Assembly: GCF_900090305.1 (NCBI RefSeq)
Contig: NZ_LT607751.1
Location: forward strand, 4,216,001 to 4,280,000
DNA: 64,000 bases
Reading direction: 5' to 3'
DNA from: Micromonospora siamensis
Lineage (GTDB): Bacteria; Actinomycetota; Actinomycetes; Mycobacteriales; Micromonosporaceae
Shown: positions 23,597 to 59,208 of the stretch, one piece after another
Layout of the letters: each line of letters opens with the position of its first letter
How positions within the stretch are numbered: the stretch's first letter is position 1
The notes under the pieces: model-generated
The model's database searches: none
Told to the model about the DNA's origin: nothing
The model's input: the letters and a program-made list of their open reading frames with translations, nothing else
Made by a program: the position numbers and the translations under genes

Positions 23597-25726
23597 TCAG
23601 GAGAACGGCAGGTAGGCCAGCCGCGCCGGTTGCGTCAGCACCTCACGAGCGGCCGGCAGATCGGCCAGCCTCGTCGCCAACGTGGCCATGGCCAGCCGCT
23701 GCGGTAGCGCGCTGCTGAACTTGAGTCCGGCGAGGGCCTTCTCGGTGACGTCCGGCAGGCAGAGGCGGTCGCTCACGCCGGCCAGGGACGCATGCAGCAT
23801 CGCCCGGTCCACGTCGGGCCGGAGCCGGATCGAGGCGTCGTCGTACCGCTGGGTGGGGTCCGCCAACTCGCTCACCGTCGCGATCAGGGTCGCGTTCGCC
23901 CGGAACCCGGCCCAGGTCCACCAGCGGACCTCGCCGTCACCGTCCCGGACCACGACGGTGCCAGCCGGATTCACCACCGCGGTCGCGTCGTGACGAAGCT
24001 CGGCCAGCCGCTTCACCGCCCGCCCGGTGAGCGCCACCGGCGGGTCCGCGCCGAGCAGGACGTCGCGCATCGCGCGAACCATCCGGTACGACAACCCTTG
24101 CGGGGACGCTCCGGTCATCCAGAGCGCCTTGCCGCCGCCCTCGGCGGGCTCCACGAAGCAGCGCTTTCGCTTCCAGTCGATGTAGGTCACCCGCCAGCTC
24201 CGGCCGGCGAGCAACAGCAGTCGTGGGCCATGCACCTTGGCGGTGAGGAGGGCGGGGTCGGTGCGACCAATCTCCGTTCGCCCCGACAGCACGGTGAACT
24301 GCGGTGGGGCGGTGAAGACGGCCAGCATGTCCATGAAGTGCCGCCGACCGAAGCGGAGCTCGGCCTCGGGACCGATGAACAGCATGCCGGAGTCCGTGTC
24401 GAGGTATCCGTGCTCGACGAGATGCCGGGCGATGACCTCGCCGCTGCGGTCGAAGGGCGACAGTCCGTTCCACTCCTGCGACCAGGTCTGGTCACCGACG
24501 CGGTGCTGCTGAAGAGTGAGCGCCAGGATCTGCTGGGCGACGATGTGCCGTGGCTCGGGCGGCGGCACGACTTCCTCGACCCAGCCCTGGGCCCAGAGGT
24601 GGAGCAGCCCCGCCGCGTGCAGCAGCCCGTCGCCGTCGAGTGCGAGGAAGAGGCAGTTCCGACTCGTACCGGTACGCCGGCCGGTACGCCCGATCCGCTG
24701 GAGGAAGCCGGCGACGCTGCGCGGCGCGTTGATCTGGATGACCCGATCAAGATCACCGACGTCGATACCGAGTTCGAGCGTGCTGGTGGCGACGATGACG
24801 CAGTCCCGCTCCTGGGCGAAGGCCTCCTCGGCGCGGCGGCGCTCGTCCATGGCGAGGGAGGCGTGGGAGAGGAACGTGGTGACGCCGAGGGCACGCAGCC
24901 GCTGGCCCAGATCCTCGACCAGCGCTCGGGAGTCACAGAATACGAGGCGCTTCTCCCCGCGGTGCAGGGCGGCGATGACCTTGGCGGCGTTGTGCACGGA
25001 TCCGACGTAGTCCAGCTCGACCTGACCGGGTGGCGGAGTGGCCGGTACGGACATGGCACCGGCAGCGGGCGCCTCAGGCGCGACAACCCGGGCGGGACGC
25101 TGTCCCCGGCCCGAGCCCTGCAACCAGTGCAGCAGATCGTCTGGATTGCCGACGGTCGCGGAGAGGCCGATTCGCTGTACCGGGCGGCCGGCCACCCGAG
25201 TGAGCCGCTCCAGCACCGCCAGGAGATGCCAGCCCCGGTCGTCACCGGCGAACGCGTGCACCTCGTCGACCACGATCGCCTGCAGGTGACGGAAGAACTC
25301 CTGATGGTCGACGGCCGTGCTGACCAGCATCGACTCCAGGGACTCCGGGGTGGTCAGCAGGACGTCCGGCCGCTCCTGGAGGATCTTCCGTCGCCGTCCC
25401 ATCGTCACGTCGCCGTGCCACAGCGCCGCTCGGCGACCCAACCAGCCGGTGTATGCCTCCAGCCTGGGCAGCAGGTTGTTGAGCAGTGCCTTGAGCGGGC
25501 ACACGTAGAGCACCGAGGTTCCCGACCAGTTCTCCTGCGCCATCCGGGACAGCAGCGGAAAGACGGCCGCCTCGGTCTTTCCCCCCGCCGTCGGGGCGAG
25601 AAGCAACGCGTCCTCGCCGGTCAGCAACGGCTGGACGGCGGCTTCCTGCAGGGGCCGGAGTGCCGGCCACTGCAGCGAATTCACCACATGGTGCAGGACG
25701 ACGGGGTGGAGCAGGTCGGCGCCCAT
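23597..25726 (-). CDS. brxHI: BREX-2 helicase BrxHI
   Basis: DEAD/DEAH-box superfamily 2 helicase, 709 residues, the last gene of the BREX type 2 set. Walker A is APTAGGKT (44-51), the DExH box is IVVDEVHAF (154-157), motif III is GLSATVG (188-193), and the second RecA lobe carries CVIVATSTLELGIDVGDLDRVI and FLQRIGRTGRR. The Lhr-like arrangement and the C-terminal accessory region (residues 400-709) agree with BrxHI, a helicase found in type 2 systems. The ATG overlaps the TGA of brxD by one base, so the two are translationally coupled. The neighbours brxD, pglZ and pglY in this order confirm the assignment. Confidence 0.9.
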   Translation of the reverse strand: MGADLLHPVVLHHVVNSLQWPALRPLQEAAVQPLLTGEDALLLAPTAGGKTEAAVFPLLSRMAQENWSGTSVLYVCPLKALLNNLLPRLEAYTGWLGRRAALWHGDVTMGRRRKILQERPDVLLTTPESLESMLVSTAVDHQEFFRHLQAIVVDEVHAFAGDDRGWHLLAVLERLTRVAGRPVQRIGLSATVGNPDDLLHWLQGSGRGQRPARVVAPEAPAAGAMSVPATPPPGQVELDYVGSVHNAAKVIAALHRGEKRLVFCDSRALVEDLGQRLRALGVTTFLSHASLAMDERRRAEEAFAQERDCVIVATSTLELGIDVGDLDRVIQINAPRSVAGFLQRIGRTGRRTGTSRNCLFLALDGDGLLHAAGLLHLWAQGWVEEVVPPPEPRHIVAQQILALTLQQHRVGDQTWSQEWNGLSPFDRSGEVIARHLVEHGYLDTDSGMLFIGPEAELRFGRRHFMDMLAVFTAPPQFTVLSGRTEIGRTDPALLTAKVHGPRLLLLAGRSWRVTYIDWKRKRCFVEPAEGGGKALWMTGASPQGLSYRMVRAMRDVLLGADPPVALTGRAVKRLAELRHDATAVVNPAGTVVVRDGDGEVRWWTWAGFRANATLIATVSELADPTQRYDDASIRLRPDVDRAMLHASLAGVSDRLCLPDVTEKALAGLKFSSALPQRLAMATLATRLADLPAAREVLTQPARLAYLPFS

Positions 25727-27042
25727 CAGGTCAGGTCGAGTGAGATCGCGTCGGCGCTGGTCGCGTTGCGTTCCACGTCCGTCATCTCGGCGGTCGACAG
25801 GGTGAGCGCGTAGTGCTGGCGGGGGTCGAAGTCGGCGAACTGGTCGACCCGGTCCAGCACGTCCCCCACCAGCTTCTTCAGGAAGAGCCGCGGCGCCACG
25901 CCGACCTTGCCGCCCAGACCGCCGGCAACGGCATCAGCCAACTGGCCGAGGTACGCGTCGCCCACCAGGTCGCGTACCCGCTCGGGTGCGGCCGACCCGT
26001 CGGCGTAGAGATCACGGACCCGGCCACCCAGCTCGACCAGTGAGTCCACCGTGAAGCCGGCGAGCCGGATCTGCACTGCCCGAGGGTTGTCGAACCGCGG
26101 GTCGGTGGTGAAGTCGACGGCGAGCCGCTGGGCCAGGGGCGCCAGCCGTTGCACGCCCTGCGGCCCGTCGAAGAATGCCGGTGTGCCGGTGATGACGAGG
26201 TACAGCCCGGGGAAGCGGCCGGAGTGCACCTCGTCGATAAGCTGGCGCAGGGCGTTGAGCGCCTTGTCGCGGGCGTCGGAGCGGACCCGCTGCAGCGTCT
26301 CCACCTCGTCGAGGACCAGCAGGAGGCCGGGGTGACCGCTGTCCCGCAGCACCGCGAGCAGGCCCTGCAGGAAGCTGAGGGCTGCGAAGTGGTCCAGATC
26401 CCCGCGCACGCCGGCGACCCGCCGGGCCGACGCGGCGACGTGCGGCTGTCCGCCGAGCCAGGCCAGTACGGCCTCGGCGGTGGCGGGGTCACCGGCGAGG
26501 GAGGCGGTCCGGTAGCCGCGGAGCGCGGCGGCGAAGGCGGGTGCGGTGCGGCTGACCGTGGCGAGTCGCTGGTCGAGCAGCACCCCGACCGCCCGGTCGA
26601 GCGCGTCCGGGTCGTCGGCGGCCACCTCGCCCGCCGCGAGGACGTCCTCCTCCAACGCGTAGAACCAGCCGTCCACCACGGGCCGCATCGCACTCGGCGG
26701 GAACGTCGAGGTGGTGAGCCGCTCGGTGAGCCGGCGGTACACGGTCTCCAGCTTGTGCAGCGGGGTCTCGTTCTCGGAGATCTGCACCTCGGCGGTGGCG
26801 AAGTTGGCGCGCTTGGCTCGTTCGGCGATCCACCGGGTGAAGAAGGTCTTGCCGGACCCGTACTCGCCGCGGACTGCCTTGAAGACCGAGCCGCTGGTGG
26901 CGACCGTGTCGAGGTCCTCCCCCACCGCACCGGTGAACCGGTCGAGTCCGACGGCGAAGAGGTCCAGGCCCGCCGACGGGACGGCGCCCCGGCGCAGCGC
27001 GTCGATGACCTCCCGCCGCCGGGCCGGGCTGACGGCGGTCAC
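25726..27042 (-). CDS. brxD: BREX-2 ATP-binding protein BrxD
   Basis: AAA-type ATPase of the BrxD (DUF2791) family, 438 residues. Walker A is RGEYGSGKTFF (58-68) and Walker B is GLLLVLDEVETLQ (239-251). In the type 2 BREX set it lies between pglZ and the helicase, exactly as here. Its GTG start overlaps the stop of pglZ by four bases (GTGA) and its TGA overlaps the ATG of brxHI, so all three are coupled. Its exact role in blocking phage replication is not established. Confidence 0.9.
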   Translation of the reverse strand: MTAVSPARRREVIDALRRGAVPSAGLDLFAVGLDRFTGAVGEDLDTVATSGSVFKAVRGEYGSGKTFFTRWIAERAKRANFATAEVQISENETPLHKLETVYRRLTERLTTSTFPPSAMRPVVDGWFYALEEDVLAAGEVAADDPDALDRAVGVLLDQRLATVSRTAPAFAAALRGYRTASLAGDPATAEAVLAWLGGQPHVAASARRVAGVRGDLDHFAALSFLQGLLAVLRDSGHPGLLLVLDEVETLQRVRSDARDKALNALRQLIDEVHSGRFPGLYLVITGTPAFFDGPQGVQRLAPLAQRLAVDFTTDPRFDNPRAVQIRLAGFTVDSLVELGGRVRDLYADGSAAPERVRDLVGDAYLGQLADAVAGGLGGKVGVAPRLFLKKLVGDVLDRVDQFADFDPRQHYALTLSTAEMTDVERNATSADAISLDLT

Positions 27043-29780
27043 GGACCACCTCCGGGCAGGCCGAACTGCGTGCGCAGCAGGGCGATGTCCAGTTTGACGG
27101 TCCGCCCGTCGTCGATCTGGGTCAGCACCGGGTAGTTGTCGACGTTGAAGATCCGCTGCAGGGTGGTCACGAATCCACCTTCCCGCCCGGGCAGCTCACC
27201 GGCCCGCTGGCCGAGCACAGCCAGCGGCAGCACACCCTTCGCCTCGACCAGCGCGCGCAGCGCGGCCTCGATCTTCTTCCGGTCCACTCGGCGCGGGGTG
27301 AGGCCGTGCTGGGCCGAGAACAGCTCGGTGTCCAGCACCGCGCTCACCAGGTCGCCGTCGCCAGCCGGCGGTTCCGCGGCGGGAGCGCTCGCCAGCTCCG
27401 GTACGTCGAACAGCGCGTCCCCGGCCACGGCCGGCACCTTGCGGCGTGACCGCGGCGCGGGCACCGGGGCCATCGGCGCAACCGGCACGGGAACGGGCAC
27501 CGATGCCTGCCACCAGTCCGGTGGGCTGGTCTCGACGGGAGCCCAGCCGGCCGGCGGGCGGGTCGCGTTCGGCATCAGGTACGCCAGCAACGGGATGGTG
27601 ACCTCGGCCAGGGACGCGCCGCCGTGGTAGCCCGCCTTGCTGGGACGGTAGCGCAACATCGGGTCCCACAGCGCGACGATCCGATTGCCGTCGGCCACCA
27701 CCCGAGGGCCGGTCAGCTCGACCTCCCCGGGGGCGACCGGCCCGGGACCGGTGCGGTGCCGGGCCGAGCCGGCGTCGGCAGCCTTGACGTACTGCCCGCC
27801 CCGTTCCAGCACGTGCCCGTGGTCGCTGGTGATGACCACGGCGCGTCCGGAGGATCGTGCCTGGTCGAGCAGGCTGCCCAGGAAGCCGAGGTCGTCGAGC
27901 TGCCATCCGGGTTCGTCGCCCTCGCGGCCGTGGGTCAGCGACTCGTCCACCGTGTTGATCACGACGGCGACCACCGGGGCCGTGCCAGCCACCGCATCGG
28001 CCAGCTCAGCCGCATACGCCCAGCCTGCGCCACCCTTGGCCGGCCCCTTGTGGAAGATCCGGGACCCCTTGCCCCACCGGCCGTCGACGAAGAGCTTCTT
28101 CTCGTGCTCCTGGTTGCCGGTGCGGAGGGCGCCGGCGAAGAGCGAGGTCCGGGACACCGCGGTCAGGGTCGGCAGGGCGGCCACGAGGCCACGTCGGCGG
28201 CCAGCCCCGGAGCCGGCGAGCGGGTCGTACTCGACCCAGTGCGGGGACAGTTCGTCGGCGAGCTGAACGGCCACGGCGGCGCTCATCCCGTCGAGGACGA
28301 CGAGCAGCACCGTCCGGTCGGCCTTGACCAGCGGGTCGATGACGCTGGGCAGCAGGTTCTCTACGGTGAGTAGGCCGCCGTCGCTTCCGGGACCGGCGGT
28401 GGCCCAGGCCGCGAAGCGACCGGCGAACGCCTGGTCCAGGTCCCGCCGCCGCTGCTGCGCGTCGTCGTGGATCTGCCGGAACGCGGCCTGCAGTTCGGGG
28501 TTGGCGTCGTCGCCGGCCCAGACGTGGTGCAGCGCCACGTCGACCCAGCCCCACTGGCCGATCTGCCGCTCCACCCCGTCGGCCACACTCGCTGGCGGCT
28601 CCGGTGCGGTGCCGAGCCAGCGTACGAGCCGCTGAGCCATCCGGATGCGGTTGACCCGGGTGGCTTCCAGGTCGGCCAGTCGGTGCCCGGCCAGCGCCTC
28701 CACCGCGTCGTCGAGCGCGCGGTTGCCCGGGTCACGCAGGGCGGCCAGGAGGGCCTGCGCGGTGGCGGTGATCCGCCGGGTGAAGCCGGTGCGCAGGATC
28801 GGGCTGTGGCCGGCGCTGGCCGTCGCGTTGAACTGGACGAGGAGTTCCTCGGCCCGGTCCAGGACCGCACTGGCCTGCAACCGGGTGTCCCGGTCGCGGG
28901 CGGCAAGCATTCCGCTCACCACCTGCACCGCCGCGTCGGCGAAGGCACGCACGGTGGCGTCGTCATCGAGGTTGCCGAAGTACTGGTCGATGCGCCCCTG
29001 CGCCCGTACCGCCTCGGCGGTGGCGGTGGTCCACAGGGCGTCGCAGACCAGACCGAGTGGAAGCGCGTCGGTGCCGTGTCCGGCGGCGACGAGCGCGAAG
29101 AGCGCTCTGGCGGGCCGTCCGAACTGCTCGACGAGCCACCCGGCCAGGCCGTCCCGCTCCCCCTCCCGGAGCAGCCCGAGGGCCTCGACCGCGCCCGGCT
29201 CGGCGCTCCACCGCAGCAGCGTCGTGACGTCCAGGTCGTCGGGGCTGCCACCCCTGCGGTCGAGGCCGAGGCGTACGGCGGCGAGGTGTCGCAGCGCCAC
29301 GTCGCGGGTGAGCACGGCGGTGGTGAGCTTCGGCCAGCCGGCGGGTGGCATCGCGTCGAGCAGTGCCTCACCGGCCCAGCCCTCCCGCTCCAGCGCGCTG
29401 TCGGGCAGTTGCGCGCCGAAGGCGTCCACGACCAGGTCCCACGGCTCGACGGTGATCACCCGCTGCCGGAAGATCCGGCTGCGCACCCCGTGCCCGAGGC
29501 TCGACTCGGGGATGTCGGTGAGCAGGACCAGCACCTCGTCGCCTCGGTCAGCGACGAGGTGCTCCCAGATGGCCAACGGCGACACACACGGCACGACCCG
29601 GGCGTGGCGTCCGCCGGGCAACACCATCGCGGGGTCGTGCGGCCAGGCCGGCTCGGCGCGCACGACCAGCACCGGGTACGCCTCGCCGTTGCGGTGCCGG
29701 TCGAGCTGCTGCGCCACCTTCTGCCGGAGCGCCACCGGGTTGATCCGCAGCGCCTGGGACGGCGCGGGTGCCTGGGTCAC
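27039..29780 (-). CDS. pglZ: BREX-2 phosphatase-fold protein PglZ
   Basis: Large 913-residue member of the PglZ family, core protein of every BREX type. The alkaline-phosphatase-like metal site is visible as LLVVLDGMSAAVAVQLADEL (Asp near residue 490) and VVITSDHGHVLERGGQYVK (DHGH near 645), followed by ITSDHGH-dependent loops and the conserved YRPSKAGYHGGASLAEVTIPLLAYL segment. The first 450 residues are helical and fit a recognition or protein-interaction region. A flexible Pro-rich linker near 770-800 precedes a C-terminal winged-helix-like tail. The GTG overlaps the stop of pglY by four bases. Confidence 0.92.
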   Translation of the reverse strand: MTQAPAPSQALRINPVALRQKVAQQLDRHRNGEAYPVLVVRAEPAWPHDPAMVLPGGRHARVVPCVSPLAIWEHLVADRGDEVLVLLTDIPESSLGHGVRSRIFRQRVITVEPWDLVVDAFGAQLPDSALEREGWAGEALLDAMPPAGWPKLTTAVLTRDVALRHLAAVRLGLDRRGGSPDDLDVTTLLRWSAEPGAVEALGLLREGERDGLAGWLVEQFGRPARALFALVAAGHGTDALPLGLVCDALWTTATAEAVRAQGRIDQYFGNLDDDATVRAFADAAVQVVSGMLAARDRDTRLQASAVLDRAEELLVQFNATASAGHSPILRTGFTRRITATAQALLAALRDPGNRALDDAVEALAGHRLADLEATRVNRIRMAQRLVRWLGTAPEPPASVADGVERQIGQWGWVDVALHHVWAGDDANPELQAAFRQIHDDAQQRRRDLDQAFAGRFAAWATAGPGSDGGLLTVENLLPSVIDPLVKADRTVLLVVLDGMSAAVAVQLADELSPHWVEYDPLAGSGAGRRRGLVAALPTLTAVSRTSLFAGALRTGNQEHEKKLFVDGRWGKGSRIFHKGPAKGGAGWAYAAELADAVAGTAPVVAVVINTVDESLTHGREGDEPGWQLDDLGFLGSLLDQARSSGRAVVITSDHGHVLERGGQYVKAADAGSARHRTGPGPVAPGEVELTGPRVVADGNRIVALWDPMLRYRPSKAGYHGGASLAEVTIPLLAYLMPNATRPPAGWAPVETSPPDWWQASVPVPVPVAPMAPVPAPRSRRKVPAVAGDALFDVPELASAPAAEPPAGDGDLVSAVLDTELFSAQHGLTPRRVDRKKIEAALRALVEAKGVLPLAVLGQRAGELPGREGGFVTTLQRIFNVDNYPVLTQIDDGRTVKLDIALLRTQFGLPGGGP

Positions 29781-32700
29781 GGCACAATTCTCCAGGTCAC
29801 CTCGATGGTCGCGTCGGGTTGGTCAGCGGCGAAGGCCCGCAGCTGCTCCACAGCCCGATCGAGGTCGCCGGCCGGCACCGAGATCCGCCCACTCGGCGAG
29901 TCGACCACGACCTCCGCAACCTCGGGCGTCTCCTGGTCGGTCGGGCGGCGTGGGTGGGTGATGTCGGCAGCGTTCTCGTCGCGTCCAGGTCGATAGACGA
30001 CCGGCGGCTTCTGAGTGGTGGCGCGACGCAGCAGGGCGGTGGCGTCGGTCTGGGCCCGACGTAGGGCCGGGGCGAGCGGGGCGGTCAGCTCGTCGGCCTG
30101 GGCCACGCGGCGCAGCTCGCCGAGGATCGCCGCCGCCTCGGCCGCGTACGGCTCGGGCAGCCCGGCGACGATCTCGAAGGTGTCCCAGGGGGCGGCGGCG
30201 AGCGCCGCCGAGACCTGCGCGGCGCTCATGATGCTCTTGCCGGTCCGGTCGGCCGGGCCAGCAAGCTCGGCGCGGGCGAGCCGTTCGACGGCTTCCACCG
30301 CCGACCGTCCGTTGGCCAGCGCCTCCAGCAGGTCGGCGGCGGACCGGGCGGTGGCGAGTCGTCCGGTGTCAGACTCCTTGTCGATGCCGAGCCAGGTGGC
30401 GTGCTGGTCCAGGCGGGCGACCAGCCCGTGGGCGGCTTCCCGGTGGCGGTTCGCCTGGGTGGTCAGGTCGCGGCCGAAGAGCGCCACGAGCCGACCCCGG
30501 CGCAGGTCGAGCGGCTGGACGCCGAAGATGGCCGCGGAGCGGGCCCGCGCCGCCTGCCAGTCGTTCTCGCTGGGCAGGCGCTCCTCCCGCAGGGTGTGGT
30601 CCGCGGTGATCTTCCCCAGTTCGGGAGCCGGGACCACCTCACTGCCGTGGAGGTAGAAAGCGCGGTCGGTCTGCTCGGCGAAGGTCGCCACGACGAGCTG
30701 CGCGACGATCGGGTCGAGGCCGCGCGGGCTCGGGTCGTCGATCCAGCGCAGCAGGTCGCCGACGCGGAGCTCGCCGGTGATGCCCTCGCTGGACGCCTTG
30801 CGCTGGAAGTGCTGGACCCACTCCCCCGCGATGACGAACGCCGCCTCGTGCATGGTGCCCAGGCCGAGCGGGTTGGCGATGCGGCGCACGGTCTGCCGGT
30901 GCGTACGGTCGACCTCGACGCGTCCCTCGGGTGACTCGACGGCCCGGCGGACGTGGTCGAGCACCACCTTGACGTCGGCAAGCCGGATCGGGTCGCCCTT
31001 GCGGTCCGGGTCGAAGTCCGGATGGGCCGGGTACTGCTGGCCGAGCATCTGGTCACCGATGCTGCGCAGGGCGTCGTTGAAGGTGGCGCCCATCGGCAGC
31101 TTCGGCTCGAGCGCCCGGGTCAGCGACTGGAGATGGTCGTCGAAGCCGACCACCACGTCGGTGGGCTGCTTGCCGGCCAGCCCGTACGCCTGGCGCAGCA
31201 CGGCCTGCATCTTGGCGAGCAGCGCGCTGCGCTGGTTGGTCAGCGCGCCGTGCGCGCGGCGCCGGTCGTCCGGGTTGAGATGCTCGGCGTGGCTGTCGAA
31301 GCGCTGCCCTTCGAGCAGCTTGTCGATGATGACGAGCTTACCCAGTTCGGTGAGGCGCTCCACCGTGAGCGCCGCGGGGATCCAGCAGACGGTGCGGGAG
31401 GTGGTCCGGCTGATCAGCTCCTGCACCCGCTGCCGGTCGTCGGCCGGGCCGTGGCTGCCGTCGTCGAACGGATAGTCGATGATCATCCGCCAGCCGGCCG
31501 GGTCGTTCGGGTGGAACGCCTCGTCACGGATGTCGTTGGCGTCGCGGACGTTGCCGTAGACCAGTTCGATGACCCGGCGGCTGCCCCGCCAGCTCAGCCC
31601 CGCCTCGGCGAAGAACGAGTCGCTCCACGGCACGCCGAGCTGCTGCCAGAGCAGCCGCTGCACGATGTGCTTGCGGGCGCCCTCGTTGTCGTAGTGCTTG
31701 GCGGTGGCGAGGACGCTGTCGACGTCCACGCCGACCAGCTCCAGCGAGACGATCGGGTCGTCGCCCTCGCCGATGCGGATCTCGGCGAACCGCCCGGCCC
31801 AGTCGGTGAGCTTGCGGTTGACCTGGGCAACCTCGCCGCCGGGGATCGGGCTGGTGATGCTGCCGTGGTTCAGCGCGGAGAGCCGCCGGGCGGTGAGGTT
31901 CCGCAGCGCCGGCACGCTGGGCGCGAGGGCGGCCAGCAGCAGCGTCTTGACGAGCCGGTCGTCACCGGTGAAGGCGCGGACCCGGCCGGTCACGTCGCCC
32001 GGCAGCGCGGTGCCGCGGCGGGCGGCCTCCAGGTCGTCGTCGGTGAGGTCGTACTGGCTGAGCAGGTAGGGGCGCAGCTTGAGGTCGTAGAGCTTCTGGG
32101 CCATCTCGAACTCGGCCTTGAGCTTCTCGGTGAACGGCTGGTCGCCGCCGCTGCTGATCACGTCGTAGAGGTCGCCGAGCGGGACGAGCTGGCCGAGGCG
32201 CAGCGTGTCGCGGCGGTCGACCAGCAGCTGACGCATCAGCTTCAGCGCGGTCCGGGAGCGCTGCAGCGCGCTGGAGACGTGCACCAGGGTGGAGAGGAAC
32301 GCCGGGCTGAACGGGTACGTCGACCGGAAGGCGTCGATGTCGGCGCCGCTGCCCGAGTCCGTGCCCAGGAGGGTGTCGAACACCTCCCGGCGTACCTTGG
32401 TGGTGGCGTCGAAGGCCTTGCCGATCGCCGCGGCGGCCGTGGTGTCGCGGGGTTTGAGCAGCCGGCGGCGGGCGATCTCCGGGAGGTTGCGGTCCTCCAG
32501 CTTGATCACGTCGAACCGGCCGCTGGCCAGGTTGAGGGTGTCCTGGTAGCTCAGCTCGTTGGCGCCGGTGACCTCCTCGCCGACGAGTTCGCGCAGGTCA
32601 CGCTGGCGGGCGATGAAGCTGACCACCGGGATGGGGCGGCGGGTGTCGCCACCCTCGACGAAGTTGGTGATCTTCTGGATCTCGCGGGAGACGAACTGCT

Positions 32701-33550: not shown

Positions 33551-33644
33551 GCTGCTTACCGTACCGATCGCGGGAGCCTGCGCACCCGCCCGGTGGACGG
33601 TCGAGGCGGTCACGACAGCAGACTCGCCGGCGGGAGTGTGGATC

Positions 33645-33660
33645 TAACGGTGTTTCCGGC
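33645..33660 (+). repeat. left terminal inverted repeat of IS256-family element
   Basis: TAACGGTGTTTCCGGC, an exact complement of 34997-35012. Confidence 0.93.
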
Positions 33661-33701
33661 CTGACCCGCCAGGCGTTGTGCCTGGTGAGGAGGGTGCCGT
33701 A

Positions 33702-37767: not shown

Positions 37768-37772
37768 CATCC

Positions 37773-48734: not shown

Positions 48735-48777
48735 TGCCAATTCGATCACGCAAGGACACCCGTCAACAACTCTACGT

Positions 48778-48806: not shown

Positions 48807-48824
48807 GGCTTCTGCCTCTCCCCT

Positions 48825-51263: not shown

Positions 51264-51383
51264 AACTGCCTCCGTTCGGACACGCCTCGCGGCGTCCAGC
51301 GGAGAGTACGTGCGCCGTACGACCACGTGCTGACCCGTCAGGAGTCGACCCGGTGTTCATCAGGCGCTGCTGGTCGCGGTGCA

Positions 51384-52229
51384 TCATCTCGATGTGATCC
51401 GCTGAAGCGCCGTTCTGATGGCCGGAGCGACGGTGTCGTACAGGTACGGCGCGCTGGTCAGGCGCCCCCAGTGGGCGGTCAACCGCATGGCGGACGGATG
51501 AGTGAACGCGGCGACGAGCGTGTCGACGCCGGCGATACGCGCCTCCTCCAGGTTCGGGGCAAGCTGACGACGGCGGCTCATGAGCGTGGTGAGCGCCTTG
51601 TAGACCTCGACGCCCTGGACGATGCACAGCGTGGGCCGAAGGATCGCGATCGTGGCCGCCATGTGTGGGGCACAGTTCTGGCTCATCGTCGGGTTGCCCA
51701 GTGACTTGCTGGTGCCTCTGACCACCGCGGAGCACAACCTCATGTTGGCCATGGCGTAGGCGTCGAAGAGGTGCACCGGGGAACGGGTGCCGTCGAGGTG
51801 GAGCTGCTCACCATCCCGGTCGGCGCCGGGATCCCGGCCGACGGCGAGTCGCAGCGCGCTGGTGACCCCGCGCATGTGCGGGTTCCGCGCGGTGAACGTG
51901 AGACTCGCCGACTGCATCACCTCGGCGTGTCGCTCCTTGAGCGTGACACCCTCCCGCGCACGCCCGGTCTCCATCGCGATGACCAGGGTGCGCGTCGGCA
52001 CCCCGTCCAGCAGGAGGTCGTAGTGGTGGCCGACGTGCGACAACTGGGCGGCGGTGAACGCCGCCCCCGGTCGTGGCACCCCACCTCGGTCGCCCAGCAC
52101 GCTCCGTCGGCAGCTGTCGAGCCTCCGGCAGACGCATGCCCCGGACGGCGACAGGACATGCTCGCCCATGTACTGACCGAGTTCGTCGACACGTCTGGCG
52201 GTCGCGACGGTGTCGCTGGCGAGGGTCAT
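51384..52229 (-). CDS. uracil-DNA-glycosylase-superfamily-like protein
   Basis: Protein of 281 residues. FTHPSAMRLTAHWGR is the HPS motif of uracil-DNA glycosylase-like folds; MSQNCAPHMAATIAILRPTLCIVQGVEVYKAL has the layout of the helix and strand that precede it in families 4/5 (NCxPHxxxxIxxLxPxxxVxxG); and HHYDLLLDGVPTRTLVIAMETGRAREGVTLKERHAE may be the substrate loop. A CVCRRLDSC cluster near residue 32 could bind metal. Function as a glycosylase is inferred from these motifs. The ATG overlaps the stop of the next upstream gene (52226-53110) by four bases, so the two are one operon. There are 120 bases between its stop and the start of the zinc-ribbon gene. Confidence 0.6.
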   Translation of the reverse strand: MTLASDTVATARRVDELGQYMGEHVLSPSGACVCRRLDSCRRSVLGDRGGVPRPGAAFTAAQLSHVGHHYDLLLDGVPTRTLVIAMETGRAREGVTLKERHAEVMQSASLTFTARNPHMRGVTSALRLAVGRDPGADRDGEQLHLDGTRSPVHLFDAYAMANMRLCSAVVRGTSKSLGNPTMSQNCAPHMAATIAILRPTLCIVQGVEVYKALTTLMSRRRQLAPNLEEARIAGVDTLVAAFTHPSAMRLTAHWGRLTSAPYLYDTVAPAIRTALQRITSR

Positions 52230-53110
52230 AGCGGCGGCTCCGCTGACGTCTGTGCGAGCGCCGAAGCGCGGGATGCTTCCGTCCTGGGACGAGGCGTGCT
52301 CGCCTCGCCTTTCTCGTCATCCGTCGCGCCGAGCAGCTCATGGCGGAGGAGCGCTGTCTCCATGGCGCTCGGTGGCCCGGCCGACCCGGCATGCCACTCG
52401 ACGACGAGCCGCTGACCGGAGGGCAGCGCGTACACGCGCACCGCCCGGCTGGCCACCGATGACCCGTAGTCCGGTCCGCCCGATCCCAGCCTGCTCGTCT
52501 CTCGCAGCCCGAGCACCTGGGCCAGGTCGTCCCACGGCCGGCCGAAGGCGAACACATCCTGCACCGGCAATTCGGCGACCGGCTGCCAGACGAACTCGTC
52601 GATGACCTCTGGTGGGGGCTTCAGCGGAGCGTTGATGGACGTCGAGTGCCACGGGTAGCACTCGAAGATCAACAGGTCACGGTGGTCGGCGCCCGGGTCC
52701 TGGAGCCAGCGGCGGGTGAACTCCAGGCGCGCCTTGTAGTACTTGTTGTCGCCCATCTCGTGCGGCAGGGTCCACGGCGGCCGGTTGTAGGGACATGTCG
52801 TAGCCCACCTGCTGTACGAGAAGTGCCTCCTGATCTCCTCCGCGAAGATGCCGTCTCGCCCCTGGAAGCGGGAGTGGAAAGCGCCGGGGTTCAGGCCGAG
52901 CACCACCATCCGCGGCGTGTGCTCCAGGCCGAGAAGGTCACCGTGGTACGGCTCCGGGAAACCATCACGAGTCACTTCGCCGGCACCGACACCCACGTAG
53001 GAGTCGAACCAGCCCTCCAGCCATGGCGGTAGTCGATCGTCACCGTTGAGCCAGGCCGCGATGTGGGCATCCCAGAGGGCCGCAACCCGCTCCCGTGCAG
53101 AGGTCACCAT
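52226..53110 (-). CDS. UDG-superfamily protein, possible Brig1-like anti-phage glycosylase
   Basis: Protein of 294 residues. MVVLGLNPGAFHSRFQGRDGIFAEEIRRHFSYSRWA contains the GLNPG strand-loop typical of uracil-DNA-glycosylase-like folds; DLLIFECYPWHSTSINAPLKPP and VQDVFAFGRPWDDLAQVLGL are the following strands, and RLVVEWHAGSAGPPS may be the distal His segment. Brig1, a DNA glycosylase that removes glucosylated bases of phage DNA, is a UDG-superfamily protein; whether this gene belongs to that family needs a sequence comparison. The C-terminal 40 residues are polar. Its stop overlaps the start of a second UDG-like gene, which is an unusual pairing. A palindromic element lies 22 bases upstream of its start. 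Confidence 0.6.
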   Translation of the reverse strand: MVTSARERVAALWDAHIAAWLNGDDRLPPWLEGWFDSYVGVGAGEVTRDGFPEPYHGDLLGLEHTPRMVVLGLNPGAFHSRFQGRDGIFAEEIRRHFSYSRWATTCPYNRPPWTLPHEMGDNKYYKARLEFTRRWLQDPGADHRDLLIFECYPWHSTSINAPLKPPPEVIDEFVWQPVAELPVQDVFAFGRPWDDLAQVLGLRETSRLGSGGPDYGSSVASRAVRVYALPSGQRLVVEWHAGSAGPPSAMETALLRHELLGATDDEKGEASTPRPRTEASRASALAQTSAEPPL

Positions 53111-53131
53111 GACGAGAAGCTATCTGCGAGT

Positions 53132-53148
53132 CACTGGCGGAGCCAGTG
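53132..53148. promoter_or_regulatory. inverted repeat in divergent promoter
   Basis: CACTGGC and GCCAGTG flank a GGA centre in the 60-base gap between the glycosylase operon (start 53110) and the DUF6998-like gene (start 53171). The position suggests an operator that controls both directions. Confidence 0.45.
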
Positions 53149-53170
53149 TGCAACGCGAAGAATCAGCGGC

Positions 53171-53731
53171 GTGACGGATGAACTCCATCAGCTGGCGGCG
53201 TTGTTACGGGACCGTGATGCCCTGGACGCCAGAATCGCGCGGCTGACCGGACGGTCGGCCCGACAGGGGGACATCGGCGAGTTCGTCGCGGCGCGGGTCT
53301 TCGACATCGCGCTCGCCGCGAACCCGGTCCAGGCCGGCCACGACGGAACATTCCGGTCAGGCCCGCTGGCTGGCCGGACCGTCAACGTGAAGACCTACGG
53401 GGACGCGTTCGACGGCATCGACATCAGCCCCCACTCCGCCGACTTCTACCTGATCTTCAGTGGCCTACGACGGCCACCAGGTGCCGTCAGGCATCACCGC
53501 TGGCAGCTATCCGCGGCATACCTTCTCGACACCCGCCGCCTGCGCGAAACCTTGACCGGCCGAGGCGTCAAGATCGGCACCGCGACGAGCATCCGCACGG
53601 CCGACCTCGAGGCGGCTCGCATCTTCCCCGACACCAACCCCTACCCGCCGCTGCGCCTGACCGCCGAGCAGGTCGCCCTGTTGTCCCTGTTCGCCGAGGG
53701 CTCCCGCGACACCAGTTCGTTGGCCGGCTGA
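53171..53731 (+). CDS. DUF6998-like protein, possible nuclease fold
   Basis: Protein of 186 residues. LTGRSARQGDIGEFVAARVFDIALAANPVQAGHDGTFRSGPLAGRTVNVKTYGDAFDGIDISPHSADFYLIFSGL has the strand order of a PD-(D/E)XK core: GE in a helix, then GHDGTF, and VNVKTYG in the position of the x-x-K element. It matches DUF6998 as far as I can recall, a family without a known activity. The GTG at 53171 has only a weak ribosome site. It is divergent from the glycosylase operon across a palindrome and converges on the broken DUF559 gene. Confidence 0.6.
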   Translation: MTDELHQLAALLRDRDALDARIARLTGRSARQGDIGEFVAARVFDIALAANPVQAGHDGTFRSGPLAGRTVNVKTYGDAFDGIDISPHSADFYLIFSGLRRPPGAVRHHRWQLSAAYLLDTRRLRETLTGRGVKIGTATSIRTADLEAARIFPDTNPYPPLRLTAEQVALLSLFAEGSRDTSSLAG

Positions 53732-53789: not shown

Positions 53790-54745
53790 TCAGCCGGTTG
53801 GGGGCGCCCGACGGGCGAGGATGGCCAGGGTCTCCCGACGCACGTCACCGGCCTCGTGGACCAGGCGACGGTGGGAGAAGCGGACCACCAGGATGCCGAT
53901 GGTGGCCAGCAGCGCGTCGCGGCGCAGGTCGATCTCCCGCTGGCGCGGTTCACCGTGAGTGGTGGCGCCGTCGAGTTCGATGTTGACCCGTTCCCGCTCG
54001 GCGAACAGGTCGAGGTACATGCTGCGCCGCCCGACGCGCACCCGCGTCTGACGATGGAACGCCGGCATTCCCGGGCCGATGAAGACGTGCTCGTGCCCCC
54101 AGATCTCCAGCGGGCTGCGGCACCCCTCGGCGAGCCGCCTCAGCAGCGTGCGAAGCGCTGCCCGGTCGTCCAACTTCGGCACGCCCGTCAGGGCCACCCT
54201 CAGCCGCTCCGGCGTGGTCAGTCGGTCGTTGACCGCCCGGATCACCGGCGCTCGCTGCTCGCTGGCGGGCAGCATCGGCCACGAGTCGACGAGGGCCTGT
54301 TCGAGGCGGATCGTCGGCAGGCCGCGCCGGATCACCACCTGCGGCGGCTCGAGGATGAGGCCCTGACGCCGGTGTACGACCACGCCGGGTCGGCTACGGA
54401 GGCCGGCGCTCGCCGGTGCGCTCAGGTGGAGCAGGTCGCCGGTCACCTGCCGGTGCAGCCCCCACCAGCCGAGCGCACTGAGGTGACTGAGCACGCCGCG
54501 CCCCGCCGCCCAGGCGCACGGTAACCCAGCGCGGGATCCAGCCGACCGATGACCGGGGTACCGCCGCATCCTCCCGCTCGATCGCGCAGCAGGTGCGCCG
54601 CCACGAACACCTCGGGCAGCACCCGCACCAGGTCACCCCTGTCGCACGCCCCCTGCAGCGTCCACGCCCGCCATCTGCTAAGACGCGCGGATCGCTGGCA
54701 GCTGGGCAGGTTGGTCGTCGGCCTGTCGAGCTGCTCAGCCGTCAA
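53790..54745 (-). pseudogene. DUF559-type protein gene with frameshift
   Basis: The first 75 codons (54745 to about 54515, TTG start) read TAEQLDRPTTNLPSCQRSARLSRWRAWTLQGACDRGDLVRVLPEVFVAAHLL, the usual N-terminal winged-helix-like part of actinobacterial DUF559 proteins. Near 54510 the frame changes; the rest reads AWAAGRGVLSHLSALGWWGLHRQ and later YLDLFAERERVNIELDGATTHGEPRQREIDLRRDALLATIGILVVRFSHRRLV, the Vsr/endonuclease-like DUF559 core. Neither frame alone gives the complete protein, so the gene is broken or the sequence has a one-base error in the G/C-rich stretch. It lies 38 bases downstream of pglW on the same strand. Confidence 0.75.
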
Positions 54746-54783: not shown

Positions 54784-57700
54784 TTACGCCGTGACGGCGC
54801 TGCGGTGGGCGTTGACGACCCAGGCGTCGGGCAGTGCGATCCACTCGTTGTCGCCCACCCGCACCACCGCACCGTCCAGCTTCGGCAGCAGCGCCGGATC
54901 ATCCATAGGGCACAACACCCAGACGCCTCCAGCTCCACCACGAGCCGCGTCGGCCAGCTCGTAGAGCCGGTCCATCGCCCGATACCGCGCCAGCACCGCC
55001 GCGTCGTGCAACAGCACCGGCCCGGCGTCGACCGACAACGAGGCCCGCAGCGACGGCGCGGCCAACTCCCACGCCCGCTCGACGTACTCCCCCAGCTTGA
55101 TCGCGCCCCGGGAGCCGGGCGGCGCGATGTCCGCGCCGACCACCGTCTCCCAGGTCGGCTTCGGGTGCGCGTCGACCAGGGCGTGCAGCTGCTCCAGGAA
55201 GCGGGCCGCCACGTTGACCGGCCGGGCGTCGAAGCGCCGCGCCAGTTCCTCCCGCGCCAGTCCGTACCGGGACAGGCGTACCGTCAGCGCCCGGAACCCG
55301 CCGGCGGACCGCGCGCCCGTCAGCCTCTCCTCGGCCCGCATCGCCGCAGCCAGCTCCGGCGACTCGGCCGTCCATCGGCTCGGCGCCACGGTCAGCGACG
55401 GGCGCCGCTGCATGATCGACATGGAGGACGATGCGTTGCGGGGCGGCGGCGGGACGTACTTGTCGCGCTCCCAGCGCAGCTCGAAGCCGGCCTCGGCCAG
55501 CAGCCGGTCCAGCTTCGGGTGCGACGGCAGCGGGTCCAGCTCCGGGAACCGCGTCCGCACCCGCTGGGTCACCTGCTCCGGCGTCAGACCGCGGCCACCG
55601 TCGGGCGAGGCCGCCGGGGGCACCACGCCGGCCTGGGCGAGCCGCAGCGCGCGTACCGGATCGAGGTCGCGCGGGTAGAGCTCCAGCCGGGCGGTCGCGG
55701 CGGCCCGCTCCGAGGCCACCGCGGCGAGCAGCACCCGCCGCCGTTCGTCGATCGCATCGGCCGCGCCGCCGGGCGCGGTCACCGCCGCGAGGGTACGCAG
55801 CACCGTCGCCGGGCTGGGCAGCACCTCGCTGGCGGCGAGCTTGTCGGCGGCCTTGCCGAGCGCGTCGGCGTAGTCGAGCAGCGCCGGCGCGGCCGGGGTG
55901 TCCGGTCCGTCGTCCTCGCCCGCCTCGAGTGCCACCAGCAGCCGGTCACCGCGCGGGTGCGGCTTGCCGCCGATGTCGGCGCGGGCGTGCCGGCGCAGCA
56001 GCAGGCGCGGCTCGTCGGCGAGGGCGTCGACCTCCACGGCGGCCCGCACCGCGGCGACCGCCACCGCGAGCCGCAGCGCGTCCCCGGTGCGCACCGAGCC
56101 GCGGCTGCTCAGCAGCGCCGCGGCCAGCTCCGCGACGCCCATCACCCGGCCGCCGTCGCGCAACAGCTCGATGATCTGGGTACGCACGCTGCCGACCACC
56201 GGGATGTCGTGCCAGCGTTTGCGCTGCTTGCCGAGGATCTGCGCGACCCGGGCGGGCGTGACCCCCAGCGGCTTGGCCACCTGCGGGTGCTGCGGCCACA
56301 GCGGCAGGTCCGGTAGGGCGCCGGTGGCGTCGGGCAGGTGCAGCGCCAGCCGGGTGGCCTCGACGTCGTTGGGGTTCCGGCTGGCCGGGACGAGCAGGGT
56401 GGCAATCGCGTCCAGGCCGACGCGTACCAGATCGGGGTCGCCGTCCCCGGCGGCGGCCTCGGAGGCGACCTCCTCCGTTGCGGCCTTGCGGGCGGCGGGC
56501 GTGGTGGGAATGGTCTCCCGCTCCCCCAGCCGGCCGCGCCACTCCTTCACCCGGCGTTGCAGCTCCTGGCGGGTCTTGGCGCCCAGGCCGGGCAGGTGGG
56601 CGAGCTTGTTGGCGACGGCGAGCAGCTCGCCGACGGTGGTGGCGTCGAGCCGGTGGGCGGCGGAGACCGCGCGCGGGGTGAGCCCGGCGGCCTCCAGGGC
56701 GGTGGCCCGGGTCACCTTGCCGGCGGCCTCGTCGCGGGCGGCCTCGGCGGCCTGCTCGTCCGGCTCGTCGGCCTCGATCTCCGGATGGTCGGTGCCGACC
56801 GGGGCGCTCGCATCGGAGCGGCGGAACACCTGCTGCCAGGCGTCGCGCATGTCCTTGAGCGAGGCGAACCGCTGCTTGTGGTCGCGGTGCAGCGCACGCT
56901 GGAGGAAGTCCGCGAGGTCGTCGCGGATCGCCGGGTCGAACGCCTCGACGGCCAGCACCGGCGGGCCCTCGGTCAGCTGCGGCTCGGTGCCGCCGTCACC
57001 CCAGACGGGCAGCTCGCCCGAGGCCATCTCGTGCAGGGTGACCCCGAGGGCGTACCACTCGGCGTGCTTGTCGTAGCCCGGCCGGGTGGCGGTGCCGAGG
57101 AACGGGTCGAGGTAGCGGGGGGTGCCGGCGGTGATCTCCTTGACCGAGACCCCGGCCAGGGAGAAGTCGAAGAGCACGAGCTGCTTGGTGCGGTTGGGGC
57201 GGACCCGGATGGCGATGTTGTCGGGCTTGATGTCCCGGTGGTAGACGCCCTCGCCCTCCAGGTAGTCCAGGGCGCCGAACAGGTAGTCGCTGTAGGTCTC
57301 CAGCTCGTCGACGGTGAGCCGGCCGTCGTCGCGCAGCTTCCGGGCCAGGGTGCGGTCACCGGCGTGCTCCAGCACGACGACCGTGCGGGTGCCGATCTGC
57401 AGCGGCTCCGGCCGGGCCAGCCGGATCACCCGCGAGTCGGTGAGCGGGCCGAGCACCCGCGCCTCGTGCGCCAGCCGGGCGCCCTTCTCGTCGGAGAGCC
57501 CGACCTTGAGCACCTCCTCCCGGCGGGTGCGCTCGTTGAAGCCGAGGAACGCCCGGCAGGTCGAGCCGGTGCCGAGGCTGCGGACGATCTTCCACTCGCC
57601 GACCCGGTCGCCGCCACGCGCCTCCAGGGGGTCGACCTGCTCGGGCTCCGGCTCCTCGGGATGCACCGACGCTGGCGGCGGGGCGGTCAGCTCCTCCTCG

Positions 57701-59208
57701 ACCACCTGGAGCATCTCGACGAACTCGGCCACCGTGGTGAGCCGCGCGGTCGGCACCGGGGCGGTGGCCGCCTGGATCAGCTCGTCGGCGAACTCGGTGA
57801 TGCCGTCGGCGATCGCGGAGGCGCGCAGGCCGTTGTCCCGGGCCAGCCGGGTGAGCAGCTCGGCGCGCTTCGCGGCCGGCGGCTGGCCGGTCAGGATCAG
57901 GTAGCTCAACGCGCCAAGCCCGAAGACGTCCATCGCCACCGGGTCCGGCTTCGGCGCGGTCAGCTCCGGCGCCAGGTACGCCTCGGCCGAGCGCTCGATG
58001 TGCGCGGCGGCGTGGGTGGAGAGGGTGACCGGGTCACCGCTGCTGACCCCACCGCTCCCGTCGACCCCGCGGGTCGCCGACTGCCAGTCGCTGAGCTGGA
58101 GCTGAGGCGTCAGCCACGCCTCGTCCTCGCTGCCACCCCGCCGCCCGCGTCCCGGGCTGACCAGCACGCTGCGCGCCGACAGCGCCCGGTGGTGCAACCG
58201 CCGGCGGTGGGCGTACGCGACCGTCTCGGCGAGCTGACGGATCATCGCCAGCCGGCTCAGCGCGTCGAGGCGGTCGCCGTACTGGGCCATGTAGTGGTCG
58301 AGGCGGATCGAACGCGGGTCGTACCGGAAGATCAGCGCCGGCCCGGCCTCGTGCGACTCCATCGAGTCGACCTGGACGATGCCGGGGTGGTTGATGCCGT
58401 GCAGGACCTGCATCTCGCGCTTGGCGGCGCGCTCGATGCTGGCCCGCTCGGCCTGTACCGCGTTGCGCTCCACCAGGTAGATCCGGACCCGGCGGCGTTC
58501 CCGCTCCAGCTCGCGGTGCCGGGCCCGGTGGTCCTGCCAGGTGGGGCCGATGTCGAAAGGTCGGGTCTCCAGCTCCCACGCGCCGACCTGGTAGTGCCGG
58601 CGGCTGCGGGCGATGCCGATCTCCTCCAGCAGGCCGGGTAGAGCCGCCGACATCTCCTTGGTGACCCGCTGCCCCTCGTCCTGCGGCGGGCGCTTCAGCA
58701 GGGAGGTGATCGGCGGCAGTGCGACCGCCTGGTGACCGGCCGCCGGCTCCGGGCCGTAGATGCCGTGCAGGTGGTGCTCGGAGAGCCCCACGTGCAGGCC
58801 CGGCCGGGACAGGAAGACCGCCGCCTGCACGAAGGGGATCCTGACCTTCGCCCCCGGCCGCTTGGCCGCGGCGGCCTGGAGCAGCGACTTCAGCTTCTTG
58901 GCCTTCATGTCGGCCAGGTGCAGCGGGTTGTCGAAGGTACGGGTGCCGCTGGGCCCGTTCAGGATCCAGTTGGAGCCGCTGGAGACCAGCCGGCCGTTGA
59001 GGCTCTTGATCTCGATCAGGTAGAGCCCGCCCGGGCCGGCGACCAGCAGGTCGACCTCGTAGGGATGGCCGGTCTGGGCGGTGAAGGTGAAGTTCGACCA
59101 GGCGCGGTAGGGCTCGCTGTCCGGCAGGAGCGCCTGGACGTGCGCCAGCGCCTCTCGCTCGTGCGCGAACTGCGACGGCGTGATCGTCGTCCACCGGCCC
59201 TCCTGCAT
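54784..59208 (-). CDS. pglW: BREX-2 serine/threonine kinase PglW
   Basis: Protein of 1474 residues, the PglW component of type 2 BREX. An N-terminal NERD domain (about 15-125) contains PYEVDLLVAGPGGLYLIEIKSLNGRL, a nuclease-like element. A first kinase-like region (about 220-500) lacks the catalytic acids: HHRALSARSVLV replaces HRD and LSDWQSA replaces DFG, so it is probably a pseudokinase. The second kinase (about 545-820) has EEVLKVGLSDEK, YHRDIKPDNIAIR (near 654) and LFDFSLAG. A helix-hairpin-helix-like stretch (LTPRAVSAAHRLDATTVGELLAVANKLAHLPGLGAKTRQEL, about 830-880) and a long C-terminal region follow. The ATG at 59208 is the family start. It is separated from pglX by about 6.4 kb of accessory genes. 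Confidence 0.93.
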   Translation of the reverse strand: MQEGRWTTITPSQFAHEREALAHVQALLPDSEPYRAWSNFTFTAQTGHPYEVDLLVAGPGGLYLIEIKSLNGRLVSSGSNWILNGPSGTRTFDNPLHLADMKAKKLKSLLQAAAAKRPGAKVRIPFVQAAVFLSRPGLHVGLSEHHLHGIYGPEPAAGHQAVALPPITSLLKRPPQDEGQRVTKEMSAALPGLLEEIGIARSRRHYQVGAWELETRPFDIGPTWQDHRARHRELERERRRVRIYLVERNAVQAERASIERAAKREMQVLHGINHPGIVQVDSMESHEAGPALIFRYDPRSIRLDHYMAQYGDRLDALSRLAMIRQLAETVAYAHRRRLHHRALSARSVLVSPGRGRRGGSEDEAWLTPQLQLSDWQSATRGVDGSGGVSSGDPVTLSTHAAAHIERSAEAYLAPELTAPKPDPVAMDVFGLGALSYLILTGQPPAAKRAELLTRLARDNGLRASAIADGITEFADELIQAATAPVPTARLTTVAEFVEMLQVVEEELTAPPPASVHPEEPEPEQVDPLEARGGDRVGEWKIVRSLGTGSTCRAFLGFNERTRREEVLKVGLSDEKGARLAHEARVLGPLTDSRVIRLARPEPLQIGTRTVVVLEHAGDRTLARKLRDDGRLTVDELETYSDYLFGALDYLEGEGVYHRDIKPDNIAIRVRPNRTKQLVLFDFSLAGVSVKEITAGTPRYLDPFLGTATRPGYDKHAEWYALGVTLHEMASGELPVWGDGGTEPQLTEGPPVLAVEAFDPAIRDDLADFLQRALHRDHKQRFASLKDMRDAWQQVFRRSDASAPVGTDHPEIEADEPDEQAAEAARDEAAGKVTRATALEAAGLTPRAVSAAHRLDATTVGELLAVANKLAHLPGLGAKTRQELQRRVKEWRGRLGERETIPTTPAARKAATEEVASEAAAGDGDPDLVRVGLDAIATLLVPASRNPNDVEATRLALHLPDATGALPDLPLWPQHPQVAKPLGVTPARVAQILGKQRKRWHDIPVVGSVRTQIIELLRDGGRVMGVAELAAALLSSRGSVRTGDALRLAVAVAAVRAAVEVDALADEPRLLLRRHARADIGGKPHPRGDRLLVALEAGEDDGPDTPAAPALLDYADALGKAADKLAASEVLPSPATVLRTLAAVTAPGGAADAIDERRRVLLAAVASERAAATARLELYPRDLDPVRALRLAQAGVVPPAASPDGGRGLTPEQVTQRVRTRFPELDPLPSHPKLDRLLAEAGFELRWERDKYVPPPPRNASSSMSIMQRRPSLTVAPSRWTAESPELAAAMRAEERLTGARSAGGFRALTVRLSRYGLAREELARRFDARPVNVAARFLEQLHALVDAHPKPTWETVVGADIAPPGSRGAIKLGEYVERAWELAAPSLRASLSVDAGPVLLHDAAVLARYRAMDRLYELADAARGGAGGVWVLCPMDDPALLPKLDGAVVRVGDNEWIALPDAWVVNAHRSAVTA

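Follow-up and report, generated by a model that had tools for sequence, protein, structure and literature searches.

Gaps between the BREX type 2 genes of Micromonospora siamensis are probable docking places for exchangeable defence-type cargo

The window analysed here, a stretch of 64,000 nucleotides from the genome of the soil bacterium Micromonospora siamensis (contig NZ_LT607751.1, positions 4,216,001 to 4,280,000), contains a bacteriophage exclusion (BREX) locus of type 2 (Pgl) whose six core genes stand in three blocks. The gaps between the blocks, slot A (pglW–pglX) and slot B (pglX–pglY), and sometimes a further slot C (brxD–brxHI), are probably standing docking places for exchangeable, largely defence-type cargo genes, which would be swapped by recombination in the core genes. 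The split itself is the ordinary layout among close Micromonospora-type loci and not a local accident.

Results

The split locus and its relatives

All six core genes (pglW, pglX, pglY, pglZ, brxD and brxHI) matched PADLOC profiles over nearly their full length (Table 1). Together with the Pfam matches, this identification confirmed the first-pass annotation of the window, which had listed the six genes as present and intact and had proposed a defence-system finder as a check. A tight order of the last four genes and inserts of about 6.4 kb and 11 kb between three blocks had also been described, and both hold: brxHI, brxD, pglZ and pglY overlap successively by 1, 4 and 4 bases, and the intergenic gaps measure 6,379 bases (slot A) and 11,215 bases (slot B). 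The NERD and kinase domains of PglW and the PglZ domain are those expected of BREX type 2 (Pgl). The motifs NPPY in PglX, Walker A in PglY and BrxD and DEVH in BrxHI are kept, and the pglX frame has no internal stop. The host genome is a single contig of 6.25 Mb, and 15 of the 17 named pglX relatives come from Micromonospora or Verrucosispora, the other two from a Rhodocyclales and a Planctomycetota metagenome-assembled genome (MAG). Judged from its reading frames, the BREX type 2 (Pgl) system encoded here is intact and belongs to a Micromonospora lineage. That BREX no longer works here and that the locus survives as a carrier of other defences is quite improbable in view of the near full-length frames, the kept motifs and the uninterrupted pglX; what speaks for it is an IS256-type element whose edge is 23 bp upstream of the annotated start of pglY, where it could cut off the promoter, and the wrecks of the locus in relatives, which retain cargo after the loss of core genes.

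Relatives of pglX were found in 46 of 160 genomes of the genus (E ≤ 1e-50, own genome included). For comparison we used 19 close loci, that is, the window, 17 other genomes of the genus that have either a pglX at least 72% identical along the greater part of the gene or a locus surrounding pglX, and one genome of the same family (G063). G366, whose pglX is reduced to the C-terminal 310 residues, was counted among the 19; G047, G264 and G360, which hold comparable pieces, were classed as wrecks, and G356 and G328 (about 60%) were excluded from the counts. Up to 40 kb around pglX was fetched per locus, several loci end at contig edges, and the genes of the relatives were called from open reading frames (ORFs) and G+C pattern, so that their boundaries are rough. 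Each of the two distances could be measured in 16 of the 19 loci; they range from 2.2 to 12.1 kb between pglW and pglX and from 6.8 to 14.9 kb between pglX and pglY. A compact operon broken recently in this genome was rejected, since the split is common to the close loci wherever it was measurable. The two transposons of the window were likewise rejected as the makers of the gaps, because neither transposase (IS256-type or IS110) has a match in the other 18 loci, a search that covered these two transposase families.

The annotation had seen in the locus a hot spot of defence genes loaded into a working BREX set. The exchangeable, defence-type content of the gaps stands, whereas the idea of an operon split up specially in this genome does not, the order being common to close loci. 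The finding named in advance as speaking against a hot spot, an ancestral layout with the inserted genes always present, was thus obtained only in its first half: the order is ordinary in relatives, but the inserted genes are not always there.

Outside the close loci the layout is more varied. In the excluded locus of G356, pglX and pglY are 0.5 kb apart and the pglW–pglX gap is 4.1 kb. A second, more distant BREX type 2 lineage exists in the genus (pglX about 53%; nine genomes fetched). Its pglW lies within 115 bp of pglX in six of the nine genomes and 7.8 kb away in one (G409), and was not found within about 5–6.5 kb of pglX in two; pglY lies 3.0–12.2 kb from pglX in six, is adjacent in one (G400) and was not found within about 10 kb in two. 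GmrSD_N-like matches were seen near pglX in four of these nine. The compact W-X-Y-Z order also exists, for example in the Rhodocyclales MAG. A further 23 pglX loci at a greater distance, 5 of them from this genus, were viewed with 1.5-kb flanks: pglW was within reach in 7, pglY in 6, both in 4 and neither in 14. These 14 may be split BREX loci, lone PglX-like enzymes or relatives over-diverged from the pglW and pglY of the window, and they give no count of split loci. Many genomes of the genus carry presumed wrecks of the locus, in which the trio described below and/or cargo are left and pglX is truncated or lost; loss of the BREX locus seems frequent in the genus.

Slot loyalty and variability of the cargo

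The 19 loci were searched with the genes of the window and with 28 representatives of cargo clusters from relatives. Twenty-six cargo families occurred in at least three loci of slot A or B, and none of them in both slots. The slot A pool comprises AbiEi-N/DUF559, Brig1, a second uracil-DNA glycosylase (UDG) superfamily protein, ADP-ribosylglycohydrolase (ARH), DUF6998-like, SduA_C (Shedu), HTH+M78 and other proteins; that of slot B comprises PD-(D/E)XK, a 991-aa protein, DUF6642, DUF7662, OGG-like, Mrr, GmrSD, EVE+NOV_C, EAL, WXG and others, NucS_C and HEPN matches being sub-threshold only. Slot C, about 2.2 kb long in four loci, holds a Schlafen/AlbA gene and a ParA-like gene. The restriction and defence domains GmrSD, Mrr, SduA_C (Shedu), EVE+NOV_C and Schlafen/AlbA exceeded the Pfam cut-off in the gaps of relatives.

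No cargo family is universal, the commonest (PD-(D/E)XK) being present in 12 of the 19 loci. On a pglY tree of 16 tips, a quick tree without a shuffled-label control, 17 families each required three to seven changes; for ARH (7), u39310 (5) and Schlafen (5) the changes equalled the number of carriers. In these counts presence anywhere in the fetched stretch was scored, and contig ends counted as absence.

It might be argued that the gaps mark a decaying locus with neutral insertions that are harmless to BREX and have no defensive meaning. The two transposons, the broken ARH gene and the c013 gene remnant of the window agree with this, as do the several genomes of the genus in which only wrecks of the locus are left. 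We consider it very improbable nevertheless: the window's transposases are missing from the other loci within the search described above, 11 of the 12 listed cargo ORFs or pieces pass the coding G+C filter, and u39310, which fails it, is still 84% identical in a relative. Moreover, the families return to the same slot across many species, and several are of restriction or defence type.

Exchange of gap contents between conserved core genes

In nucleotide alignments of the window with six relatives, pglW, the trio with the N-terminal part of pglX, the C-terminal part of pglX and the region from pglY onward were covered, and in the slots and at pglX codons about 540–675 the alignment was missing or fragmentary. 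This stretch of pglX, which from its position we take to be the target-recognition region, was too diverged for blastn in all six relatives although the rest of the gene aligned, pointing to a possible switching of specificity. In five of the six relatives the alignment ended no more than about 15 bp from the 3′ end of pglW, and in five of six it ended equally close to the pglX 3′ end, that of G063 continuing into a shared 991-aa gene. At the 5′ end of pglY the edge fell on the same base (within 2) in all five relatives having the gene.

The comparison with G365 is the clearest. Nucleotide identity amounts to 93.2% in pglW and 92.2% in pglY–brxD, with 82–86% in pglX and 81% in brxHI. In slot A the Brig1, UDG, DUF6998 and ARH genes are shared at a lower identity (66–81%), and in slot B only the PD-(D/E)XK gene (72%) and the c013 stretch. 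The hot-spot reading is supported because gap content thus differs between loci with near-identical pglW and pglY–brxD. Short matches to core gene ends were also found inside slots: pglW tails in G311 (195 bases) and G283 (104 bases), a pglX-derived piece in G380 (55 bases) and, in the window, the relic of a foreign pglX tail. The edges and relics would fit allele replacement by homologous recombination in the core genes.

Confinement of the cargo to the locus

Four cargo families were searched for in the 160 genomes at thresholds of 1e-20 for Brig1 and 1e-15 for the others, the C-terminal half of the 991-aa protein serving as its query. The carriers had the gene in this BREX locus or a presumed wreck of it in 8 of 8 cases for Brig1, 11 of 11 for the second UDG protein, 18 of 18 for PD-(D/E)XK and 13 of 14 for the 991-aa protein. 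In G275 the contig with BREX breaks off within a piece of the 991-aa gene; the match counted there stands at the start of another contig.

Such confinement is also what would be expected if the cargo consisted of lineage-specific working parts of BREX (sensors, activators or backup effectors needing PglX or PglZ) and were bound to the locus for that reason. Besides the near exclusiveness of the four families and the slot loyalty, the position of the 991-aa and PD-(D/E)XK genes of the window directly behind pglX and in the same direction speaks for this, and one of the two follows pglX in several relatives. We regard this explanation as unlikely, if worth serious consideration, because no family occurs in all 19 loci and cargo outlasts an intact pglX in wrecks; in addition, Brig1 homologues and BrxU have each been reported to protect E. 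coli alone (PMC11078745; PMC8565348).

Several observations weigh against docking places with exchangeable cargo. The 991-aa relative of G015 lies outside any recognisable BREX remnant, the G403 copies stand among other slot A genes without the trio or a core gene, and the wrecks of G412 and G354 were recognised by the trio and the cargo themselves. Four of the 26 families (c010, c011, c019 and AbiEi-N) also occur upstream of pglW, and in the distant locus G356 a slot B family (the GmrSD_N cluster) sits in the pglW–pglX gap. Slot loyalty could arise from selection or shared ancestry instead, and the tree-based change counts lack their control. Relics of core gene ends are present in only 4 of the 19 loci and are short (55–195 bases), three further matches of 33–43 bases having been set aside. 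The cargo of the window is itself partly decayed (ARH, c013), and the usual GxxPG motif A is found in none of the 30 aligned rows of the second UDG family, 16 of which have AMETG (by eye).

The trio beside pglX and the individual cargo genes

A GntR regulator, a DivIVA-domain protein and the small protein u49284 accompany pglX in all close loci, and the trio is therefore not cargo. The GntR gene is within 130 bp of pglX in 13 of the 19 loci (in G366, of the remaining pglX piece) and 1.3–2.3 kb away in 6, and the trio persists in several wrecks. The DivIVA domain itself is not BREX-specific, because the own genome holds four further, weaker matches (37–50% identity). The trio is part of this BREX lineage and may act as its regulator.

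In slot A, the AbiEi-N/DUF559 protein is possibly shortened, because part of the N-terminus of a relative matches in another frame. Its assignment to AbiE was rejected: AbiEi was matched only in part and no partner toxin was recognised. In a Brig1 alignment of 21 rows, E150 is invariant and Y124 is kept in at least 90%; their spacing of 26 equals that of the Brig1 pocket residues Y121 and E147, the residues having been placed by spacing and conservation in an alignment that does not include the original Brig1. Family 4 UDGs are recognised by four cysteines of an iron-sulfur (Fe-S) cluster, an HPS motif B and a motif A of the GxxPG type. The second UDG protein shows the fold of this family, and C34, C40, C166, C186 and P245 are invariant and H244 is kept in at least 90% of the 30 rows. 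No sequence match in the PDB was obtained for Brig1 or the second UDG protein at E up to 10, and u50697 gave no match in Pfam, PADLOC or NCBIfam.

In slot B, the 991-aa protein has RNase H topology and an N-terminus containing cysteines. A complete set of catalytic acids is expected of an RNase H; by eye, the acidic residue of the first strand and D550 are kept in the family, and in 2 of 13 rows His takes the place of the third acid. The PD-(D/E)XK-like protein had no Pfam match. The DUF6642 protein is possibly caspase-like, to judge from a His/Cys pair kept in three of five aligned copies (by eye). DUF7662 recurs in slot B of 10 and the OGG-like protein in that of 4 of the 19 loci. GmrSD domains, which mark nested type IV enzymes of the BrxU type, were found in none of the gap proteins scanned in the window and are present in sister loci.

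The two transposons, the c013 remnant, the broken ARH gene and the trio had been overlooked in the first-pass annotation. The family c013 is an open frame of 435–470 aa in seven other slot Bs. The IS256-type element is present in three identical copies in the genome, this one included, which suggests that it may have moved recently. A clean insertion was rejected, as the eight bases on either side differ and no target-site duplication is seen; these flanks and the adjacent c013 remnant would fit a deletion at the element. Just beyond brxHI (22182–23260) small EspC-like and WXG100-like proteins resembling those of type VII secretion are encoded, the WXG match being below the Pfam cut-off.

Table 1 Features of the BREX locus in window coordinates
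Feature	Place	Coordinates	Strand	Evidence or remark
pglW	core	54784..59208	-	PADLOC PDLC02512, 1594.6 bits; Pfam NERD nuclease domain and Pkinase domains
AbiEi-N + DUF559 protein	slot A	53790..54569	-	PADLOC AbiEi, 3.3e-11; PF04480
Protein with weak DUF6998 match	slot A	53063..53731	+	PF22522, 22.8 bits, below cut-off 27
Brig1 anti-phage DNA glycosylase	slot A	52226..53110	-	NCBIfam NF047634.1 equivalog, 357 bits (cut-off 230)
Second UDG-superfamily protein	slot A	51384..52229	-	4-base overlap with brig1; four invariant Cys and an HPS motif; motif A altered
u50697	slot A	50697..51326	-	third gene of the brig1 run
Broken ARH gene	slot A	49567..50641	+	homology in two frames; PF03747, 23.9 bits, below cut-off 26.2
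u49284 small protein	trio	49284..49661	+	19/19 loci
DivIVA-domain small protein	trio	48919..49314	+	divergent from GntR; PF05103, 28.6 bits (cut-off 28); 19/19 loci
GntR regulator	trio	48477..48986	-	directly before pglX; PF00392; 19/19 loci
pglX, adenine methyltransferase	core	44829..48404	-	PADLOC PDLC02529, 1717 bits; NPPY at 362
991-aa protein, unnamed family	slot B	41802..44777	-	RNase H-like fold region 503-644
PD-(D/E)XK-like protein	slot B	40507..41751	-	invariant VDLAW...IAEVKS...EQLRLGLGQ in 9 aligned copies
u39310	slot B	39310..40368	-	5/19 loci, slot B only
OGG-like putative DNA glycosylase	slot B	38079..38792	+	PF21790, 171 bits
DUF7662 protein	slot B	37786..38082	+	adjoins OGG-like gene; PF24698, 52.6 bits
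IS110-family transposase	slot B	36661..37767	+	between DUF7662 and DUF6642 genes; PF01548, PF02371
DUF6642 protein	slot B	35728..36513	-	PF20347, 54.4 bits
Relic of foreign pglX 3′ tail	slot B	35475..35552	-	85% to G283 pglX tail over 61 bases; 77% to own pglX over 78
c013 cargo-gene remnant	slot B	35033..35227	+	197-base match, next to IS256-type element
IS256-type (IS256/Mutator) element	slot B	33637..35020	+	1384 bp; transposase 33678-34988; PF00872, 455 bits; terminal repeats
pglY (BrxC-type ATPase)	core	29777..33613	-	PADLOC PDLC02488, 1544 bits
pglZ	core	27039..29780	-	PADLOC PDLC02565, 875 bits; PF08665
brxD ATPase	core	25726..27042	-	PADLOC PDLC02494, 699 bits; PF10923
brxHI helicase	core	23597..25726	-	PADLOC PDLC02503, 1078 bits

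Discussion

In type 1 BREX, methylation by PglX spares the DNA of the cell itself and unmarked phage DNA is blocked. The type 2 system of the window would presumably act in the same way, blocking phage DNA that lacks its methyl mark, and the cargo would cover phages that evade BREX through base modification. Brig1 would cut modified bases out of phage DNA (alpha-glucosyl-hydroxymethylcytosine in the case of the studied homologue), its UDG-fold neighbour might act on another base or assist Brig1, and the PD-(D/E)XK and RNase H-like proteins may be further nucleic-acid effectors. Strains would swap cargo through homologous recombination in the conserved core genes on either side, a process which would keep the families bound to their slots and at the same time reshuffle the variable part of PglX, and transposons would erode the cargo. 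From their identity and place we infer that Brig1 and its partner may play here the role of the type IV enzyme BrxU, which in sister loci would fall to GmrSD, Mrr or EVE-type genes in slot B.

Beyond the docking of exchangeable cargo as such, a fuller picture can be drawn, which we put forward tentatively and think rather less likely than not to hold in all its parts. The type 2 BREX of Micromonospora would be a modular chassis in which the core genes provide the homology arms and every slot takes up only families of its own cargo pool, which are hardly found elsewhere in the genus. The cargo would consist of modification-dependent partners of BREX, including a unit of two glycosylases (Brig1 and a UDG-fold Fe-S enzyme with a new specificity) and a new family of RNase H-like effectors of about 990 residues.

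The founding BREX type 2 system, Pgl of S. coelicolor A3(2), has pglWX and pglYZ 6 kbp apart (PMC4365076). The window shares with it the genes pglW, X, Y and Z and a gap between pglX and pglY, and differs in that pglW and pglX are 6.4 kb apart instead of adjacent, in the fixed GntR/DivIVA trio and in the recurrent cargo of both gaps. In the type 1 locus of pEFER, the GmrSD type IV enzyme BrxU is nested between brxC and pglX and gives complementary protection (PMC8565348). The window similarly has a candidate gene for modification-dependent defence between BREX core genes, although pEFER is a plasmid-borne type 1 system and the candidate here is a DNA glycosylase; genes with GmrSD domains are found in the sister loci. 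Wild-type T4 escapes the BREX of E. coli and a mutant without glucosylation does not (work cited by PMC11078745), and BrxU closes this route of modified phages in its type 1 locus (PMC8565348).

Brig1 homologues have been reported to lie often near BREX/Pgl genes and in some cases beside an ADP-ribosylglycohydrolase, and other DNA glycosylases are mentioned in the legend of the neighbourhood figure of that paper (PMC11078745). The protein of the window resembles Brig1 in the equivalog match and the Tyr/Glu pair at the same spacing; unlike the published one, its gene occupies a fixed BREX slot and overlaps a second UDG-superfamily gene. Auxiliary or backup nucleases of BREX (PD-(D/E)XK, GmrSD/HNH, HEPN and Schlafen) have been described beside or within core loci, auxiliary effectors being present in at least 4363 taxa when all BREX and related systems are taken together (PMC12839542). 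The main text of that paper lacks the words glycosylase, UDG, uracil and caspase, and no slot structure appears in the parts of it covered here. No description of slot-structured cargo in Micromonospora BREX was found in the open-access literature searched. The presence of nucleases in BREX loci and that of Brig1 next to BREX/Pgl genes are thus already published, and the system is mostly of a known kind; new are the order of the slots, the confinement of the cargo to the locus and the uncharacterised families.

These findings turn the vague notion of a defence island into a testable rule that states which cargo occupies which gap, by what route it is exchanged and whether the escape from BREX by modified bases is closed. 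Since they occur in the genus almost only with this BREX locus, the second UDG-fold enzyme, the PD-(D/E)XK protein and the RNase H-like family are good candidates for new anti-phage functions.

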